Shown here piece by piece: positions 7,380-55,053 of a stretch of 64,000 nucleotides of DNA. The notes beneath the pieces are model-generated. The model worked only from the letters and a program-made list of their open reading frames with translations. It was not told the origin of the DNA and made no database searches. The position numbers were made by a program, and so were the translations under genes. The DNA comes from Terriglobia bacterium. Lineage in GTDB: Bacteria > Acidobacteriota > Terriglobia > JAJPHL01. Numbering within the stretch: position 1 is the stretch's first letter; each line of letters opens with the position of its first letter. Location of the stretch: the NCBI GenBank assembly GCA_021325275.1, contig JAJPHL010000022.1:1-64000 (forward strand). The letters run 5' to 3'.

Positions 7380-8918
7380 ATGGAAGCGCCGCAAATCCTG
7401 CAAGTTCATCCCGACGACAACGTTGCCATCGCGCTCCCCGAGCAAGGACTCCCAGCCGGGACCAAGCTGCCGAACGGAGTCGTGCTTCAGCAGCACGTTC
7501 CCGAAGCCCACAAAGTCGCACTCGGCGCGATTGCGTCCGGAAGCCCAATCAAGCGCTACGGACAAATCATCGGATACGCCTCAACCGACCTCGCCGCCGG
7601 CGCGTGGGTTCACGAAGGCAATGTTTCCCTGCCCAACATGCCCGACCTGGCGAGCGTTCCGCTCGCCACCGCGACACCTCCGAGGTTACCGCGGCTTGAA
7701 GGCTACACATTTCAAGGATTCCGCAATCCCGACGGCAGCGTCGGCACGAAAAACATTCTGGCGATTTCGACGACCGTGCAGTGCGTCGCCGCGACCGTCA
7801 ATTACGCCGTGCGCCGCATCCGCCAGGACCTGCTGCCGCGATTCCCCAACGTCGACGACGTCATCGCGATCACGCATAACTTCGGTTGCGGCGTGGCGAT
7901 TGGGGCACGCGGTGCAGACATACCCATTCGCACGCTGCGCAACTTGACGCTGAATCCCAACCTCGGCGGCGCGCCGATGGTCGTGTCGCTGGGATGCGAG
8001 AAACTGCAGCCCGCTGAGATGCTGCCGTCATCGACGCTGCCGATCTTGCAGCAGGCTCCTTACGTCGTGCGACTGCAAGACGAAGAGCACATGTGTTTCG
8101 ACGACATGGTCAACGCAATTCTAACCATGGCGGAAAAACGCCTCGAAACACTGAACGCGCGGCGGCGCACCACGTGCCCGGCGTCCGACCTAGTGGTCGG
8201 AATGCAATGCGGCGGCTCGGATGCGCTCTCCGGAGTCACGGCGAATCCGGCGGTCGGCGTGGCGTCGGATCTTCTCGTGCGCGCCGGCGCAACCGTGATG
8301 TTCTCCGAGGTCACCGAAGTGCGCGACGCCATCGCGTTGCTCACGGCGAAAGCCGCCGACGCCCACGTCGCGCGACGGCTGGTCGAAGAAATGCGATGGT
8401 ACGACGAATATCTCGATCGCGGCGGCATCGACCGCAGCGCGAATCCTTCGCCGGGGAACAAAAAAGGCGGCTTGTCGAATATTGTCGAGAAGGCCTTAGG
8501 ATCGGCGGCCAAGGCGGGATCGAGCGCCATCGCCGGCGTGGTTGGTCCCGGCGAGCGCGCCACGCGCTAAGGATTGCTTTTCGCCGCCACGCCGGCCAGC
8601 GATTTCATCTGCGGCACGCTGCAACTCGCCGCGGGAATGAACATGCACCTGTTCACGACGGGACGCGGCACGCCTTATGGACTCGCCATGGCGCCGGTGA
8701 TCAAAATTTCCTCGCGCAGCGCGCTGGCGCATCGCTGGCGCGATCTCATCGACATCGACGCCGGACGCATCGCCGCGGGCCAGGCGACGATCGACGAAGT
8801 CGGATGGGAAGTTTTCCACATGATCATCGAGGTAGCCAGCGGCCAGCGCAAAACCTGGGCCGACCACTGGGGTCTTCACAATGAATTTGCTTTGTTCAAC
8901 CCGTCGCCGGTGACGTAA
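7380..8918 (+). pseudogene. UxaA/GarD-family altronate or galactarate dehydratase with in-frame stop
   Basis: The full reading frame is about 512 codons, the normal length for the family, with an N-terminal SAF domain (residues ~1-95) and the GD/AH catalytic part. A single TAA at 8568-8570 interrupts it; the same frame then continues with [16 protein letters not shown] and [13 protein letters not shown], both typical of the family C-terminus. Homologues usually have Lys or a similar residue at that point, so an AAA-to-TAA change would explain it. The enzyme dehydrates a sugar acid (D-altronate or galactarate). The ATG at 7380 follows a TACACT box at 7365; a TTG at 7374 is an alternative. Either inactivated or a sequence error. 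Confidence 0.85.
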
Positions 8919-8935
8919 CCCGCCACATCCTGAGC

Positions 8936-8941
8936 TATAGT
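8936..8941 (+). promoter_or_regulatory. TATAGT -10-like box, 6 nt before the TPR gene start
   Basis: TATAGT matches the sigma-70 -10 consensus at 5 of 6 positions and ends exactly 6 bases before the ATG at 8948. That would place the transcription start on or next to the start codon (leaderless mRNA). I see no convincing -35. Confidence 0.45.
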
Positions 8942-8947
8942 GAGGCG

Positions 8948-9835
8948 ATGGAAGCGGAAAGTCCTGCCGAGAGATTATTAGCTGAAGGACGCGCGGCGCT
9001 GCAGCGCGGCGATCCTGAGCAAGCCCTGGCGCGCTTTCAGGAAGCCACTGCGGTCGCCAAGGGGCGCCTGCATGCCACCGCGCTCGGTGAAATGGCCGTG
9101 ATTCACCGTCGCCGCGGCGATGCGGCCGAGGCGCTCCAGCTACTCGAAGAGGCCTCGGACGCCTTCCAAACTCTCGACGACCAAGCATCGCGCGCCGGCA
9201 TTCTCGGGGAGATCGCCCGCGTCCGCCTGCAAAACGGCGAAGTCGACGAGGCGCTGCGATTGCAACAAGAGGCTCTGGCGATCTTCGAGGCCCTCGGCGA
9301 CAAGCTGTCGCGCTCGGTGATCGTCGGCGAGATCGCCATCATTCACGAAAACCGCGGCGACGTGGAGACGGCGCTGCTGATGCATCAAGAGAGATTGAGC
9401 ATGGTCGAAGCGCTCGGCGAGAAGCGAGAGCGCGCGATCGCTTTGGGTCACATCGCACGAATCCGCCTGGCAAAAGGCGACGTCGAGGAGGCCCTGCGCA
9501 TTCATCAGGAGCGACTTGCCGCCAATCAGGAACTAGGCGATCAAGACGGCATCGCCAACACGCTCTGGAATATCGGGCAGATCGAACTACAGCAACAGCA
9601 AATCCAGGCGGCGTTCCAACATCTGGCCGAGTCTTACAAGATTCTTCTGAACCTCGGACGCCTCGACGGCATTTGTTTCGTCGGGCTGGACCTGGGCAAA
9701 CTCCTCTGCAGCGCCGGGGAGCGTGAAACAGGAATCGAGATCCTCACGCGCTCTCGCGATGGCTTCACCCGCCTCGGTTGGACCGATCAGGCGCGCGGCA
9801 CGCAGCAGTTGATCGACGCGATCACTGCTCCGTAG
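8948..9835 (+). CDS. Tetratricopeptide-repeat protein
   Basis: 295 residues composed almost entirely of about six TPR-like repeats of ~40 residues, each with the pattern LGEIA..R...G..EEALRLHQE...I.EALGDK. This resembles the TPR_12/kinesin-light-chain style common in acidobacterial sensor and scaffold proteins. No signal peptide or catalytic domain is present, so a cytosolic protein-protein interaction role is likely. The gene sits between a broken dehydratase gene and a duplicated fragment of that gene's end (9845-9931), which suggests it was caught up in a duplication. Confidence 0.85.
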   Translation: MEAESPAERLLAEGRAALQRGDPEQALARFQEATAVAKGRLHATALGEMAVIHRRRGDAAEALQLLEEASDAFQTLDDQASRAGILGEIARVRLQNGEVDEALRLQQEALAIFEALGDKLSRSVIVGEIAIIHENRGDVETALLMHQERLSMVEALGEKRERAIALGHIARIRLAKGDVEEALRIHQERLAANQELGDQDGIANTLWNIGQIELQQQQIQAAFQHLAESYKILLNLGRLDGICFVGLDLGKLLCSAGERETGIEILTRSRDGFTRLGWTDQARGTQQLIDAITAP

Positions 9836-47730: not shown

Positions 47731-49569
47731 TCACTTCAATCGCGTGACCTTTAGATTCTTGGCGCGCTGGCCGCCCATGTGTCCTTTGTTCTCCTCGTCG
47801 GAAAACGCCACACCCGCCGCGCCCTCGTTCTTGCCGACCTTCGGCGGACCGTCCCACGTCGATGGAATCGGCACGGTCGCACCTTGATGGTTGCTTTGAT
47901 CGAAGACCACGATGTGATGGTCGAGCCAAACCTGCAAACTGTCGCCGCGCGCTTCCACGTCGAGATGGTGGAAGATGCTGGAATCGAAGCGATCGACGGG
48001 CCCGGAGAACGCCACGACCGCTTGCCGGTTGAGCCGCTTCACGCGCACGCTGCCCGTCGAGTAAAGTTGCACCCAATATCCAGCCGACGTCCCGCCGATC
48101 AATCCGTCGCCGGGATGCGCGCGCCGGCTGCGAAAGTATGGTCCCGCATCGCTGACGTTTCCGGTGGCATCGCTCGGAACCAGCAGGTCGACCGAGATTC
48201 GCAGATCCTGGCCCGCGTCCGCGCCGCGAATGCCGGCCATGGCGCATGCGCTCTCCGCCTTCGCCAACTGCATGCCGGTCCAATTGGTTCCGGAGTTGTG
48301 AAGGTCGATGGAAGTGGCGCCGCGTTCAAACGCGATTCCGTCGAGGAAGATCGGCATGAAATAATCGCCGTCCACATCGTCTACGCCCGCCGAGCAACGA
48401 TAGATGGAGACGACTTCCGCCGGCGATAGCGCGCGCTCGAAAACTCGCACATCGTTGATCGCGCCGCGGAACGCGGAGCCGCCGAAAGCGCCTTGCCCGA
48501 TTTTCCACGTGGCATCGGCGCGCGTCACCAAAGGCCACGGCACGCGGCCGGTGGCATCGAGTTGGCCGTCGACGTAAATGTGCACCAAATCCGACGGCGC
48601 GCCGTCGTAAACGGCCGCCACCATATGCCACGCTTCATCCGCAAACTGCGCGGCGGTGGTGACGGCTATCGCGGTGATCCGGCCGTCGCGACGGAGAAAT
48701 ACCACAAAGTGCGGAGCGGGTGGATCGTGGCGGTCGGAGTTGTACTCGAAGATCACGGTGTCGTCAACGCGTGGACGCGTGGCCTTGAACCAGGCCGTCG
48801 CGGTTCGCGGAGCGTCGTCCACCGGAAGCGCGCCTCGCGCAGAGCCGTCGACCGCCGATTGCAGGCCGTTAAAGCTAACTACGCTTCGGCTGCCGGTTCG
48901 ATCAGGGGTCCACGCGACCTCGCCGCGAATCACGCCGTCGAGTCCATGACCGCTCGCGTCGTGCACAGCCGCGCCCTGACCTTCGTCGAGTTTCCACCAC
49001 GCGACTTCCCCTCGGTTGGGCTCGGGAGCAGGCGGCGCGACCGGCCGCTTGAGAACCGCCACGATCGCCGCGAGGAGAAATATCAATGCTGCTGCAAGAA
49101 TCCACTTCGCTTTGCTCGCCGGCGGCGCAGGCTCCAATGCAATCGCCTCGGCCTCCGGCGCCGCCGCGAGGTCAGGGGGCGCGGCGGGAATCTCGGAGTC
49201 GACAACTCGCGCCACAACCGAGTATCCCAGCTTCGGGTGCGTTCGAAAAATCTTCGGATTCTTCGGATCGTCGTCGAAGGCCTTGCGCAATTCGGAAATC
49301 GAGCGTGCCAGCACGTCGTCAGAGACGGCCAACCCTTCCCACACGCCCTCAATCAGCTCGTCTTTGCTGACCAGCCGGTCGCGGCGAGCCAGCATGAAAA
49401 GTAGGACCCGATAGGTCTTCGGCCGCAGCGGGATTTCGATGCCATTTCGCCGAACAGTGGCTCGTGCTACGTCAACCTCTGCTTCGTTGACGTAGAACAC
49501 CCCCTCTTTCGGCAAAATTTCAACGTTCTTACGGTCGCTTTCCCTTACTTTGCTGGCCGAATCGGCCAT
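47731..49569 (-). CDS. Membrane-spanning CadC-like regulator with LamG-type sensor
   Basis: 612 residues from the ATG at 49569 (MADSASKVRESDRKN), with GGGAGG upstream. Residues ~30-120 are an OmpR/PhoB-type winged helix (RPKTYRVLLFMLARRDRLVS, DVLARSISELRKAF, PKLGYSVVA). A single membrane helix follows at ~156-173. Outside the membrane come a LamG/concanavalin-like domain (~185-380; WKLDEGQG, DGVIRG, IYVDGQLDATG, IGQGAFGGSAFRGAINDVRV) and a second beta-jelly-roll (~385-610) resembling DUF1080-type sugar-binding folds. It probably senses a polymer and controls genes directly; the divergent secreted protein gene 64 bp away is the obvious candidate. Confidence 0.82.
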   Translation of the reverse strand: MADSASKVRESDRKNVEILPKEGVFYVNEAEVDVARATVRRNGIEIPLRPKTYRVLLFMLARRDRLVSKDELIEGVWEGLAVSDDVLARSISELRKAFDDDPKNPKIFRTHPKLGYSVVARVVDSEIPAAPPDLAAAPEAEAIALEPAPPASKAKWILAAALIFLLAAIVAVLKRPVAPPAPEPNRGEVAWWKLDEGQGAAVHDASGHGLDGVIRGEVAWTPDRTGSRSVVSFNGLQSAVDGSARGALPVDDAPRTATAWFKATRPRVDDTVIFEYNSDRHDPPAPHFVVFLRRDGRITAIAVTTAAQFADEAWHMVAAVYDGAPSDLVHIYVDGQLDATGRVPWPLVTRADATWKIGQGAFGGSAFRGAINDVRVFERALSPAEVVSIYRCSAGVDDVDGDYFMPIFLDGIAFERGATSIDLHNSGTNWTGMQLAKAESACAMAGIRGADAGQDLRISVDLLVPSDATGNVSDAGPYFRSRRAHPGDGLIGGTSAGYWVQLYSTGSVRVKRLNRQAVVAFSGPVDRFDSSIFHHLDVEARGDSLQVWLDHHIVVFDQSNHQGATVPIPSTWDGPPKVGKNEGAAGVAFSDEENKGHMGGQRAKNLKVTRLK

Positions 49570-49633
49570 CCTCAATGCCTCCCCCCGCAAGTGCGAGGTC
49601 CTATGTTGGAAGTTTACCTGGAGGTGGACGGTT

Positions 49634-52195
49634 ATGGGAATACTTAAGCGCTGTTTGTTCGTTGGTTTTGCGATACTGGTTACACTGACACTGGCCCGGT
49701 GGGCCACCGCGCAGTCGACCCTTCCGGTGGTTCGCACTCTCAGCTACAACCAAATTAGCTTGCTCACGGCGAATCCCGGCACACCTCAAGGAACCGGCCG
49801 GCAATTCCCGTCGATCTCGGCAAACGGGTCGAAGCTGGTCTTCTCGCAGACCGACTCGTCGGGTGCGTTCCATGTTTACTCCATGAACGCCGATGGGTCG
49901 GGACAAACTCAGTTGGATACGTACAAGCCGCTGGCGTGCTGCGGTCCCGCGATGGTCGACATCTCCTCGGACGGCAGCAAGATTGTCTCCGCCGATCCCG
50001 CGCAGATCCGCATCAACGGCAGCGTGCTAGCGCAGTTCAACGACGGACAGTTGCTCGACGTGAAGATCACCGGCGACGGCACGAAGATTCATTTCATGAT
50101 CGGGCGCGACACCGTGCTCACCGGCAAGAACACCGCCGTCACGCGCGGCATCTGGGTGATCAACTCGGACGGCACGGGCATGAAGCAAATCGTAACGCCG
50201 AGCAACTTGCAGTCGATCGGCATTTCCGGCGCCGCCGGCTACATCAACTTTGCGCAGCAAGGACCGATGATTGGATCGTCCACCGACGGAACGCACGTTG
50301 TCTTCGGTGCCTACGACAGCCCCGTCTCCGGCGGTCAAGGTCAAGGTGTCTTCGCCGTGAACGCCGACGGCACGGGCTTGCGTGATCTAATCGGACGCAT
50401 CGGTTTCACCAACACGGTGAACATCAGCGGCGACGGAACGAAAGTCGGCTACACATACACGGATCTCAACGGCGGGCAGGTTTGCGGCGTGGTTAATTTT
50501 GACGGATCCGGAAAACTCAATCTCACCGATAGCACGGTGCTGCATCCAGGCACCGGCTTCAATCTTCCCGATCCGCGCGATCGGGTGCAGCTTACCAACG
50601 ACGGAACGCAATTACTGATGGGCAATTCGGGATTGCTCTATAGCACGGCTTCTGGTTCAAGCGTAGTGCAACTCGCCGCGCGCGGCGGATATTTTTCCAG
50701 CGATCCGGTGCCGCTCGTCGGCGATGGACTCTATGGTCCAAGCATGAACTCCACCGGCACGCGCGTTCTCTATCTGCAAGGTGACAACAACAACATCCCG
50801 CAACTGGCCGTGCTCGACGTGAATCCCGCGTCGCCTAACGCGGCTGCGCCGGTGATGTCGAATGTCGCGCTGAATCCAGCGTTCATGCTCGTGAACACCA
50901 CTAACGCCGTCGCCTCGGCCCAAGTGACCGCGGCAGGGTCGATCCTGCGTGTGGGAGTAAACTTCCTGCTCAACGGCCTGAACGACGGGAATGTCTTCAA
51001 CTCGAACCCGTTGTTCGACGATGGGACACACGGCGACACGAAGGCCAATGACGGCACCTATACGGGTAACAACAACCTAGTGGAAGGCAACGCGACCATC
51101 GGCGGACGCACGATGCGCGTGAAGGCGGAAACGAAAACCAGCGACGGATTGCGTCACGCCACGGCGGTGGAGGTCAGCGGACTGTCTGTCGTCACGCAAC
51201 CACCGACCGCTCCGACTGTTTCATCGACCAGTCCATTCAGCGGAAAGCCCGGCGCGAGCGTCACGATCAACGGAACTGGCTTCAGCACCACGGTTGGCAA
51301 CGACAGCGTGTCGTTTGGGGGGCAATCGGCACAAATCACGAGCGTCACGGCCACAACTCTCAACGTCGTGGTTCCGTCGGCGCTCGCGCCGGGCGTGGTT
51401 GCCGTTTCCGTTGCGGTCTTTGGACAAGCAAGCAATTCGGTGAACTTCACCGTCACCAGCGGAACCGGAACTCCTCCGGTGATCAACACAGGAGGTGTCG
51501 TCGGCGGTGCGAATTTCCTCGCGGTGGTGACGGCCGCGGGCATCACGTCGGTCTTCGGCACGAATTTCACGACGGTCAACTTGGGTGCGTCGACGTTACC
51601 GCTGCCCACCACGCTCGGCGGCGTGACGATCCATGTGAACGCGATTCCCGCGCCGCTCTTCTTCGTGTCGCCCACCCAAATCAATTTCCTGATGCCCTAT
51701 GAAGTGTTGGGTTTGAGTCAAGCGACGATCACGGCGACCACGTCGGCCGGCGACAGTTTGTCGCAAACCATCTCCTTGCAGAGTGTGGCGCCCGGCATTT
51801 TCGCCGTGAACGCCGCGGGGCAAGGCGCGGTTCTGATTTCACAAACCGGCCAGTTGGCTGCGCCGACCGGCAGCATTCCCGGCCTGTCTACGCGACCCGT
51901 ACAACGCGGCGAGTTCGTAACCATTTACTGCACCGGACTCGGCGCCGTCACCAATCCCCCAGCGACCGGCGCACCTGCGCCGAATTCGCCGCTGTCCAAC
52001 ACCACGGCCACGCCGACCGTGACGATTGGCGGCGTCGCGGGAACGCCGACGTTCTCAGGATTGTCGCCGGGATTCGTTGGACTCTACCAGATCAACGTGG
52101 CGGTTCCGTCGGGTGCTCCATCGGGATCGGCGGTCTCGTTGGTTGTGGGGATCGGCGGCGTGAATTCGAACACGGTGACTATTGCCGTCCAATAG
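49634..52195 (+). CDS. Secreted propeller/IPT protein with Solibacter C-terminal domain
   Basis: 853 residues from the ATG at 49634, with GAGGT upstream. It has a signal peptide (GILKRCLFVGFAILVTLTLA), TolB/PD40-type blades (~30-400; SISANGSKLVFSQTD, DISSDGSKIVS, NISGDGTKVGYTY), an Ig-like part (~410-515), an IPT/TIG domain (~525-610), and a C-terminal ~220 residues matching the Solibacter TIGR03437-type domain (FLAVVTAAGITSVFGTNF, PTQINFLMPYE, GLYQINVAVPSGAPSG). Probably a surface or extracellular binding protein. It is transcribed divergently from the LamG regulator and overlaps the M19 dipeptidase end by 17 bp. Confidence 0.88.
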   Translation: MGILKRCLFVGFAILVTLTLARWATAQSTLPVVRTLSYNQISLLTANPGTPQGTGRQFPSISANGSKLVFSQTDSSGAFHVYSMNADGSGQTQLDTYKPLACCGPAMVDISSDGSKIVSADPAQIRINGSVLAQFNDGQLLDVKITGDGTKIHFMIGRDTVLTGKNTAVTRGIWVINSDGTGMKQIVTPSNLQSIGISGAAGYINFAQQGPMIGSSTDGTHVVFGAYDSPVSGGQGQGVFAVNADGTGLRDLIGRIGFTNTVNISGDGTKVGYTYTDLNGGQVCGVVNFDGSGKLNLTDSTVLHPGTGFNLPDPRDRVQLTNDGTQLLMGNSGLLYSTASGSSVVQLAARGGYFSSDPVPLVGDGLYGPSMNSTGTRVLYLQGDNNNIPQLAVLDVNPASPNAAAPVMSNVALNPAFMLVNTTNAVASAQVTAAGSILRVGVNFLLNGLNDGNVFNSNPLFDDGTHGDTKANDGTYTGNNNLVEGNATIGGRTMRVKAETKTSDGLRHATAVEVSGLSVVTQPPTAPTVSSTSPFSGKPGASVTINGTGFSTTVGNDSVSFGGQSAQITSVTATTLNVVVPSALAPGVVAVSVAVFGQASNSVNFTVTSGTGTPPVINTGGVVGGANFLAVVTAAGITSVFGTNFTTVNLGASTLPLPTTLGGVTIHVNAIPAPLFFVSPTQINFLMPYEVLGLSQATITATTSAGDSLSQTISLQSVAPGIFAVNAAGQGAVLISQTGQLAAPTGSIPGLSTRPVQRGEFVTIYCTGLGAVTNPPATGAPAPNSPLSNTTATPTVTIGGVAGTPTFSGLSPGFVGLYQINVAVPSGAPSGSAVSLVVGIGGVNSNTVTIAVQ

Positions 52196-54466: not shown

Positions 54467-54472
54467 CCACCC

Positions 54473-54766
54473 ATGGAGATCACACTTTCGCCGGAGTTCG
54501 AAAGCTACGTTGATGAGTTGATCGCCGCCGGGAAGTACGCGACAAAGGATGAAGCCCTCACCGATGGCCTTCGCGCGCTCCGGGAGCGTCAAGAACTCAG
54601 TGGAGCCGAACTGGAGGATTTGCGCCGCGAGATTCAGGTTGGTATCGACGCCATCGATCGCGGAGAATACGAAGAGTTCGACGAAACCAATATCCATAAG
54701 CTTGCTGAGGACGTTCATCGTCGCGGGATGGAGCGCTTGGCCGCAGAGCGGCTGAAGCGCGCATGA
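54473..54766 (+). CDS. ParD-like antitoxin
   Basis: 97 residues starting MEITLSPEFESYVDELIAAG. The N-terminal half is the ribbon-helix-helix fold of ParD antitoxins (ITLSPEFESYVDELIAAGKY then ATKDEALTDGLRALRERQE). The C-terminal half is long and charged, suited to wrapping the toxin. Its TGA overlaps the toxin ATG by 4 bp. It should repress its own promoter as a dimer and neutralise the ParE-like product. Confidence 0.87.
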   Translation: MEITLSPEFESYVDELIAAGKYATKDEALTDGLRALRERQELSGAELEDLRREIQVGIDAIDRGEYEEFDETNIHKLAEDVHRRGMERLAAERLKRA

Positions 54767-55053
54767 AGCAAGCGCGGACAACGCACCCAGCCCGCCGAGA
54801 CTTAGACGACATCTGGTTGTGGATCGCGAGAGACAGCCCAGCGAACGCCCAGCGGTTTGTATCGGAAATCGCCGATCACTTTCCGATGCTCGCCGCCTTT
54901 CCAAGAACCGGGCGACTGTGTCCGGAATTGAAGCCAGGGATGCGAAGGTTTCCGGTTCACAAGTATGTGATCTACTATCGCGAAACGAAGCGCGGAGTCG
55001 AAATCCTTCGCGTCCTTCACGGAGCGAGAGACGCGAAACGCATCTTCGGCTAG
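54763..55053 (+). CDS. ParE/RelE-family toxin
   Basis: 96 residues with the ParE pattern: ARRDLDDIWLWIARDSPANA, FPRTGRLCPELKPGMRRFPV, YVIYYRETKRGVEILRVLHG and the closing Arg/Asp-rich ARDAKRIFG. ParE toxins inhibit DNA gyrase, RelE toxins cleave mRNA; the ParD partner favours the first. It is translationally coupled to the antitoxin (ATGA). Confidence 0.88.
   Translation: MKQARTTHPARRDLDDIWLWIARDSPANAQRFVSEIADHFPMLAAFPRTGRLCPELKPGMRRFPVHKYVIYYRETKRGVEILRVLHGARDAKRIFG

Follow-up and report, generated by a model that had tools for sequence, protein, structure and literature searches.

Two genes lie back to back in the window, the whole stretch of 64,000 nucleotides from a Terriglobia bacterium that was analysed here. 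One encodes a membrane-bound regulator with two outer domains, a LamG domain and an unnamed domain called D2 in this work. The other encodes an exported protein. The positions of both genes and of their parts are given in Table 1.

Table 1. The divergent gene pair and its features, in window coordinates
Feature	Position	Strand	Basis
Regulator gene, 612 aa, ToxR/CadC-type one-component membrane regulator	47731..49569	(-)	Trans_reg_C and CadC similarity
Winged-helix DNA-binding domain, aa 27-122	49204..49491	(-)	Trans_reg_C, E 3.2e-13; limits are those of the local profile
Single transmembrane helix, about aa 155-173	49051..49107	(-)	Hydropathy 2.62; helix 152-173 in a low-confidence model
LamG/concanavalin-like domain, aa 187-392, ending in invariant Cys392	48394..49011	(-)	Laminin_G_3, E 8.2e-21
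D2, unnamed domain, aa 394-612, core AGPYFRSR..PGDG..GG.SAGYW, invariant Cys442	47734..48390	(-)	Multiple alignment
64-bp gap between start codons, presumed shared control region	49570..49633	.	GGAGG before both starts
Divergent gene, 853 aa exported protein: possible propeller, IPT/TIG, Soli_cterm	49634..52195	(+)	ATG at 49634
IPT/TIG domain, best stretch	51212..51451	(+)	PF01833, E 2.2e-14, 53.6 bits
Soli_cterm (TIGR03437)	51497..52192	(+)	E 9.5e-65

The coordinates and strand of the regulator gene were re-derived from the sequence, with the start placed at the ATG at 49569 on the reverse strand. A start further upstream, at 49737, would give a longer frame but is less probable: GGAGG precedes 49569, and several homologues align from there. 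Trans_reg_C scores 50.0 bits in the regulator against a Pfam cut-off of 26.2, and Laminin_G_3 (PF13385) scores 75.2 bits against 27.6, so that two of the families named in an earlier, sequence-only reading of this DNA exceed their cut-offs. By sequence, the DNA-binding domain of CadC is the nearest solved structure (5ju7, E 9.1e-13), and in Foldseek the predicted model of the winged helix retrieves CadC and ToxR (E 8e-7), in keeping with the CadC-like winged helix of that reading. The protein is not CadC itself, since it scores 60.4 bits with the NCBIfam CadC equivalog (NF007540), whose cut-off is 400.

The regulator has a single hydrophobic stretch, placed after the winged helix and before LamG. 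Every 19-residue stretch of the protein with a mean hydropathy above 1.6 starts at residues 151-163, by hydropathy and with no dedicated predictor, which agrees with the single membrane helix that had been claimed. The winged helix would then lie in the cytoplasm, with LamG and D2 on the outer side. The charge flanking the helix is more positive on the N-side than on the C-side in 17 of 20 LamG-D2 regulators. In the window's regulator the helix departs from the positive-inside pattern (N-side 0, C-side +1), as it does in two others, and for this reason confidence in the best explanation given below is slightly lowered. By its layout, as read from the sequence, the regulator belongs with the ToxR-like receptors, and its sensor is unusual.

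D2 is a real and conserved domain. Mean identity among 24 regulators is 44% for D2, 44% for the winged helix, 36% for LamG and 22% for the linker plus helix. The corresponding values for 20 regulators are 47%, 46%, 38% and 23%, in a set from which L077, L088, L102 and L107 had been manually excluded; two of these four rank among the most diverged (L numbers denote loci). Cys392 and Cys442 are kept in all 24.

The family to which D2 belongs is harder to name. The window's copy matched no Pfam or NCBIfam family. Of the ten relatives scanned, three show a marginal match to DUF1080, the best at E 0.011, and one to Laminin_G_3 (E 0.073). In profile comparisons with hhalign, D2 reaches a probability of 9.5% (P 0.0034) against five DUF1080 domains and 1.7% against the LamG profile. 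A search of the PDB with the D2 profile put neurexin LamG domains on top at a non-significant E of 0.018. Structure models of the outer part, built from two-sequence alignments, are poor (mean pLDDT 37.6 and 38.1, the latter for D2). The D2 model nevertheless finds CBM66, SHBG LamG domains and galectins first in Foldseek, none under E 0.02, with an S-layer protein among the top five, and the full model finds CBM66 at rank 28 (E 2e-4, TM-score 0.11 by query). Taken together, these matches weakly suggest a concanavalin-like fold, at low certainty. The sequence-only reading had described two carbohydrate-binding-like beta domains, the second of them DUF1080. The first is firm; the second exists, and its proposed fold class may be right on weak evidence, but membership of DUF1080 (3keto-disac_hyd, PF06439) is not borne out.

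The divergent protein has a signal-peptide-like start by a crude hydropathy test. Its Soli_cterm domain scores 218.5 bits against an NCBIfam cut-off of 29.05, and such domains are common in these bacteria, with 120 places at E <= 0.001 in the window's genome and 32 to 93 in six relatives. A propeller is weakly supported: a TolB propeller matches at E 0.013, far below the cut-off, and PD40 has no match in the window's protein; in a relative at L072, PD40 is found at E 9e-4, just below the cut-off. The protein had been described as a secreted propeller/IPT protein with a Solibacter C-terminal domain, and all of this holds well except the propeller.

In GC content and third-position GC both genes resemble five nearby genes, a comparison that gives no sign of horizontal transfer for either. 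A ParD/ParE toxin-antitoxin pair lies at 54467-55053 of the window (ParE E 1e-22, ParD E 1.8e-4).

The gap between the two start codons is indeed 64 bp long, as had been read. A consensus scan found no sigma-70-like promoter in 49570-49633, and TATACT is absent from it. At 7 of 21 loci (L070, L073, L074, L079, L080, L081 and L093) TATACT lies no more than 45 bp ahead of the regulator start that was used, beginning 15-27 bp before it; so near the start, it would leave a very short leader. No shared operator was found in the regulator gaps. An EM motif search gave 41.7 at width 12, compared with 29.7-34.1 in shuffled sets, and 73.7 at width 18, compared with 50.2-55.7; the four shuffled sets preserve base composition alone, so that ribosome sites and TATACT boxes are lost in them. 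The motifs have no clear sense and were not used as an operator.

Full-length relatives of the regulator sit in one family of the same class, here called f5, in a search that scored three candidates per genome and therefore gives a lower bound. A named record with such a relative, CAIRSA010000321 (uncultured Acidobacteriia bacterium), is the same DNA as L079 of f5. A D2 profile matched 26 of 237 f5 genomes at 39 or more places, again a lower bound with 12 candidates scored per genome; 37 of the 39 places were read, the other two being short contig-edge pieces. The window's genome carries D2 as well. With seven candidates scored per genome, and hence as lower bounds, D2 was found in at least 7 of 399 genomes sampled from the class (six of f5 and the window's) and, of 396 sampled from the phylum, in the window's genome only. 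Horizontal transfer keeps a chance, because in these samples no genome outside f5 other than the window's has D2.

D2 is not confined to regulators. It is also present in giant exported-looking proteins (L081, L096, L097, L098, L104 and L105). At L085, positions 8315-9616 encode an exported-looking LamG-D2 protein that has no DNA-binding domain; genes for an NtrC-type response regulator and an S49 peptidase lie upstream of it. The regulator genes at L084, L106, L107 and L094 have broken frames, either by decay or by assembly error.

The sequence-only reading expected the gene pair to be conserved. The exact pair hardly is. The propeller-like region of the window's exported protein was found in 2 of 237 f5 genomes (E <= 1e-20), a lower bound with at most six candidates scored per genome. 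One of these homologues, at L072, stands beside a LamG-D2 regulator, and the other, at L114, has no regulator in the 17 kb read.

What recurs is the arrangement. A LamG-D2 regulator is present at 27 loci, the window and broken ones included. Of these, 24 were counted, leaving out L088 and L107, which end at a contig edge, and L094, which is broken. A regulator was scored as facing an exported gene when a divergent ORF of at least 150 aa, with a signal-peptide-like start, began between 30 bp inside and 400 bp upstream of it; the test for signal peptides is a rough one, and some of its hits are implausible. By this measure 20 of the 24 regulators face a divergent exported-looking ORF (19 of 23 without the window), which starts 33 to 253 bp away. 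The same layout is found for 41 of 156 other genes, that is, mechanical ORFs of at least 200 aa (5/35 in the window and 36/121 in 25 other loci). The difference is large (Fisher 1.2e-7), for rows that are not independent, some loci such as L073 and L074 being close kin. No exported partner is faced at L077, L091, L102 and L106, and at L077 and L091 the regulator stands in tandem with Soli_cterm-type genes. The claim that the regulator faces its probable target gene is plausible: the arrangement recurs, but the identity of the partner is not conserved.

Other CadC-like regulators of the class were compared in the same way. In a set of 26 rows (L002-L059), 17 face an exported ORF, which does not differ significantly from 20/24 (p 0.20). 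In a second set of 29 rows (L115-L141), 18 do so, compared with 41/156 for other genes (p 3e-4); this set has longer flanks and partly shares its loci with the first, its hits are in part spurious-looking (for instance the partner at L136), and 6 of the 29 rows lack a membrane helix by a coarse rule applied to partly cut proteins. CadC-like regulators of this class thus tend in general to face an exported gene, and this is not peculiar to the LamG-D2 type: because the others do nearly as well (17/26), the layout is general, not sensor-specific.

The best explanation of the locus, to which we give a probability of roughly 60%, is that the regulator acts as a ToxR-like receptor, in which ligand binding by LamG-D2 would control the divergent exported gene through the winged helix. 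At the cell envelope, LamG and D2 would bind a ligand resembling a carbohydrate. This would change, by way of the single membrane helix, how the receptor dimerises or packs, and the winged helix on the cytoplasmic side would then act on the 64-bp divergent control region. As a result, expression of the exported IPT/Soli_cterm protein would be set, and probably also that of the regulator's own gene. The nature of the ligand, DNA binding at the gap, control of the neighbour and the direction of that control are parts of this mechanism that we infer.

Alternately, the two genes may merely share a divergent promoter region, with the regulator acting mainly elsewhere or on itself only. The scarcity of the exact partner, the target homologue at L114 that has no adjacent regulator, and the failure to find an operator would all fit such a situation. 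Against it stands the recurrence of the layout, far above the level of other genes, and it is judged unlikely.

The kinds of neighbour differ. A partner of at least 700 aa is present at 14 of 24 LamG-D2 loci. Among the controls the count is 7 of 29 (p 0.02), and among other genes it is 5 of 156. Five of the seven large control partners are Oar/TonB-like, three by pattern and two (L126 and L138) by eye. Large partners that are not of the Oar/TonB type are thus faced at 14/24 LamG-D2 loci and 2/29 controls (p 6e-5), in a comparison chosen after seeing the data and partly judged by eye. Facing such proteins may be special to LamG-D2 regulators.

The 20 exported partners scanned fall into overlapping classes. 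Soli_cterm is present in four (the window, L071, L072 and L075), which exceeds the one or two per hundred genes estimated from genome size. PEP-CTERM-like tails are present in five (L070, L073, L074, L084 and, below the cut-off, L087). Choice-of-anchor D repeats exceed their cut-off in five (L071, L079, L083, L086 and L095), and choice-of-anchor C is found in one (L082). Other partners have a propeller (L089), FG-GAP repeats (L080 and L081) or F5/8 type C domains (L093), and no named domain was found in those of L090 and L092.

Some further likenesses were noted. By eye, the giant partners at L071, L083, L086, L093 and L128 end in a sequence like GNxxIRAxV, possibly a further common domain. 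The partners of the control CadC-like regulators include Oar/TonB-like receptors, PEP-CTERM-like proteins and, judged by eye, proteins resembling aspartyl proteases. In the window's genome, two PD40-type CadC-like regulators, L137 (C13) and L140 (C17), face proteins with PEP-CTERM-like tails by pattern only, and sensor type and partner type perhaps go together.

A partner could also be the thing that is sensed. In this case the exported protein or its stalled precursor would bind LamG-D2 and give feedback on assembly or export. Relatives of the sensor domains are present in the partner or an adjacent gene at four loci: D2 in the divergent partner at L081, LamG in that at L079, and a distant LamG in the tandem gene at L091 and in the gene behind the partner at L090. 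In the D2 tree, however, the copies from giant exported proteins form a clade of their own (100/99), and at neither L081 nor L079 do the trees place the partner's copy nearest to that of its own regulator. Recent copying of a target's domain into the sensor is unsupported, because of this separate clade and the lack of partner-regulator pairing. The partners are also diverse while D2 is constant, and sensing of the partner is accordingly rated as improbable, somewhat more so than the shared promoter.

For the preferred reading, in which LamG-D2 binds an external ligand, the same constancy is informative. Given an unchanging D2 and varying partners, the ligand is more likely to be a common polymer of the envelope or matrix than the partner protein. 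PEP-CTERM-like partners occur, by eye, at two separate places of the D2 tree, and partners were therefore exchanged. A tentative extension is that these are lineage-restricted switches, in which a constant LamG-D2 sensor has been paired repeatedly with different giant exported or PEP-CTERM-like proteins, and which might tune the surface proteome to one envelope or matrix polymer.

Lastly, LamG-D2 might anchor to peptidoglycan or another envelope layer and report strain or damage with no soluble ligand, which the conserved D2 core across diverse partners and the two invariant cysteines would suit, but nothing speaks specifically for it, it looks the same as ligand sensing by computation, and it is very unlikely.

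Test of a putative ligand-sensing receptor. With a lectin-like sensor lying next to its putative target gene, the pair forms a compact system that allows direct tests of ligand, DNA site and output.

Purpose of exported proteins. If the control is real, it offers a lead on what Soli_cterm-type exported proteins are for.

Cell-surface display. The recurring layout with varied exported proteins hints at a sensor that can be reused.

A candidate domain family. D2 has no name in the copies of Pfam and NCBIfam used and is conserved enough to merit its own family. It is weakly similar to the 3-keto-disaccharide hydrolase domain (DUF1080, PF06439) and to CBM66, with no significant match.

The class Acidobacteriae has more membrane one-component regulators than average according to one survey, whose table of characterised examples contains none from this phylum and whose main text does not contain the terms LamG, laminin or concanavalin (PMC10269533). 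Among the matches listed, no title or abstract in the open-access literature describes a LamG-bearing membrane regulator.

A role in polysaccharide responses has a precedent in TfoS of Vibrio cholerae, described as a membrane one-component regulator in the chitin response (PMC11856585); on the strength of this example, such regulators can serve responses to polysaccharides. The window's regulator is like TfoS in being a membrane one-component regulator, and differs in that TfoS, as portrayed there, acts with ChiS on another kind of target.

Within the class, CadC-like regulators of the TPR and PD40 types share the kind of DNA-binding domain and also often face exported genes. Nine other CadC-like proteins were scanned, and six have TPR, three have PD40 and none has LamG; four of the nine ended 28 to 65 aa early at the end of their locus, too little for a LamG domain. 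The suggestion that this sensor is unusual for the CadC type agrees with these counts.

ToxR-like receptors are described as having a cytoplasmic OmpR-type winged helix, a single transmembrane helix and a periplasmic sensor, and as regulating DNA from the membrane (PMC5430869). The window's regulator resembles them, and CadC of E. coli, in its winged helix, its one membrane helix and the domains behind it. It differs from CadC of E. coli in the sensor, which consists of LamG plus the unnamed D2.
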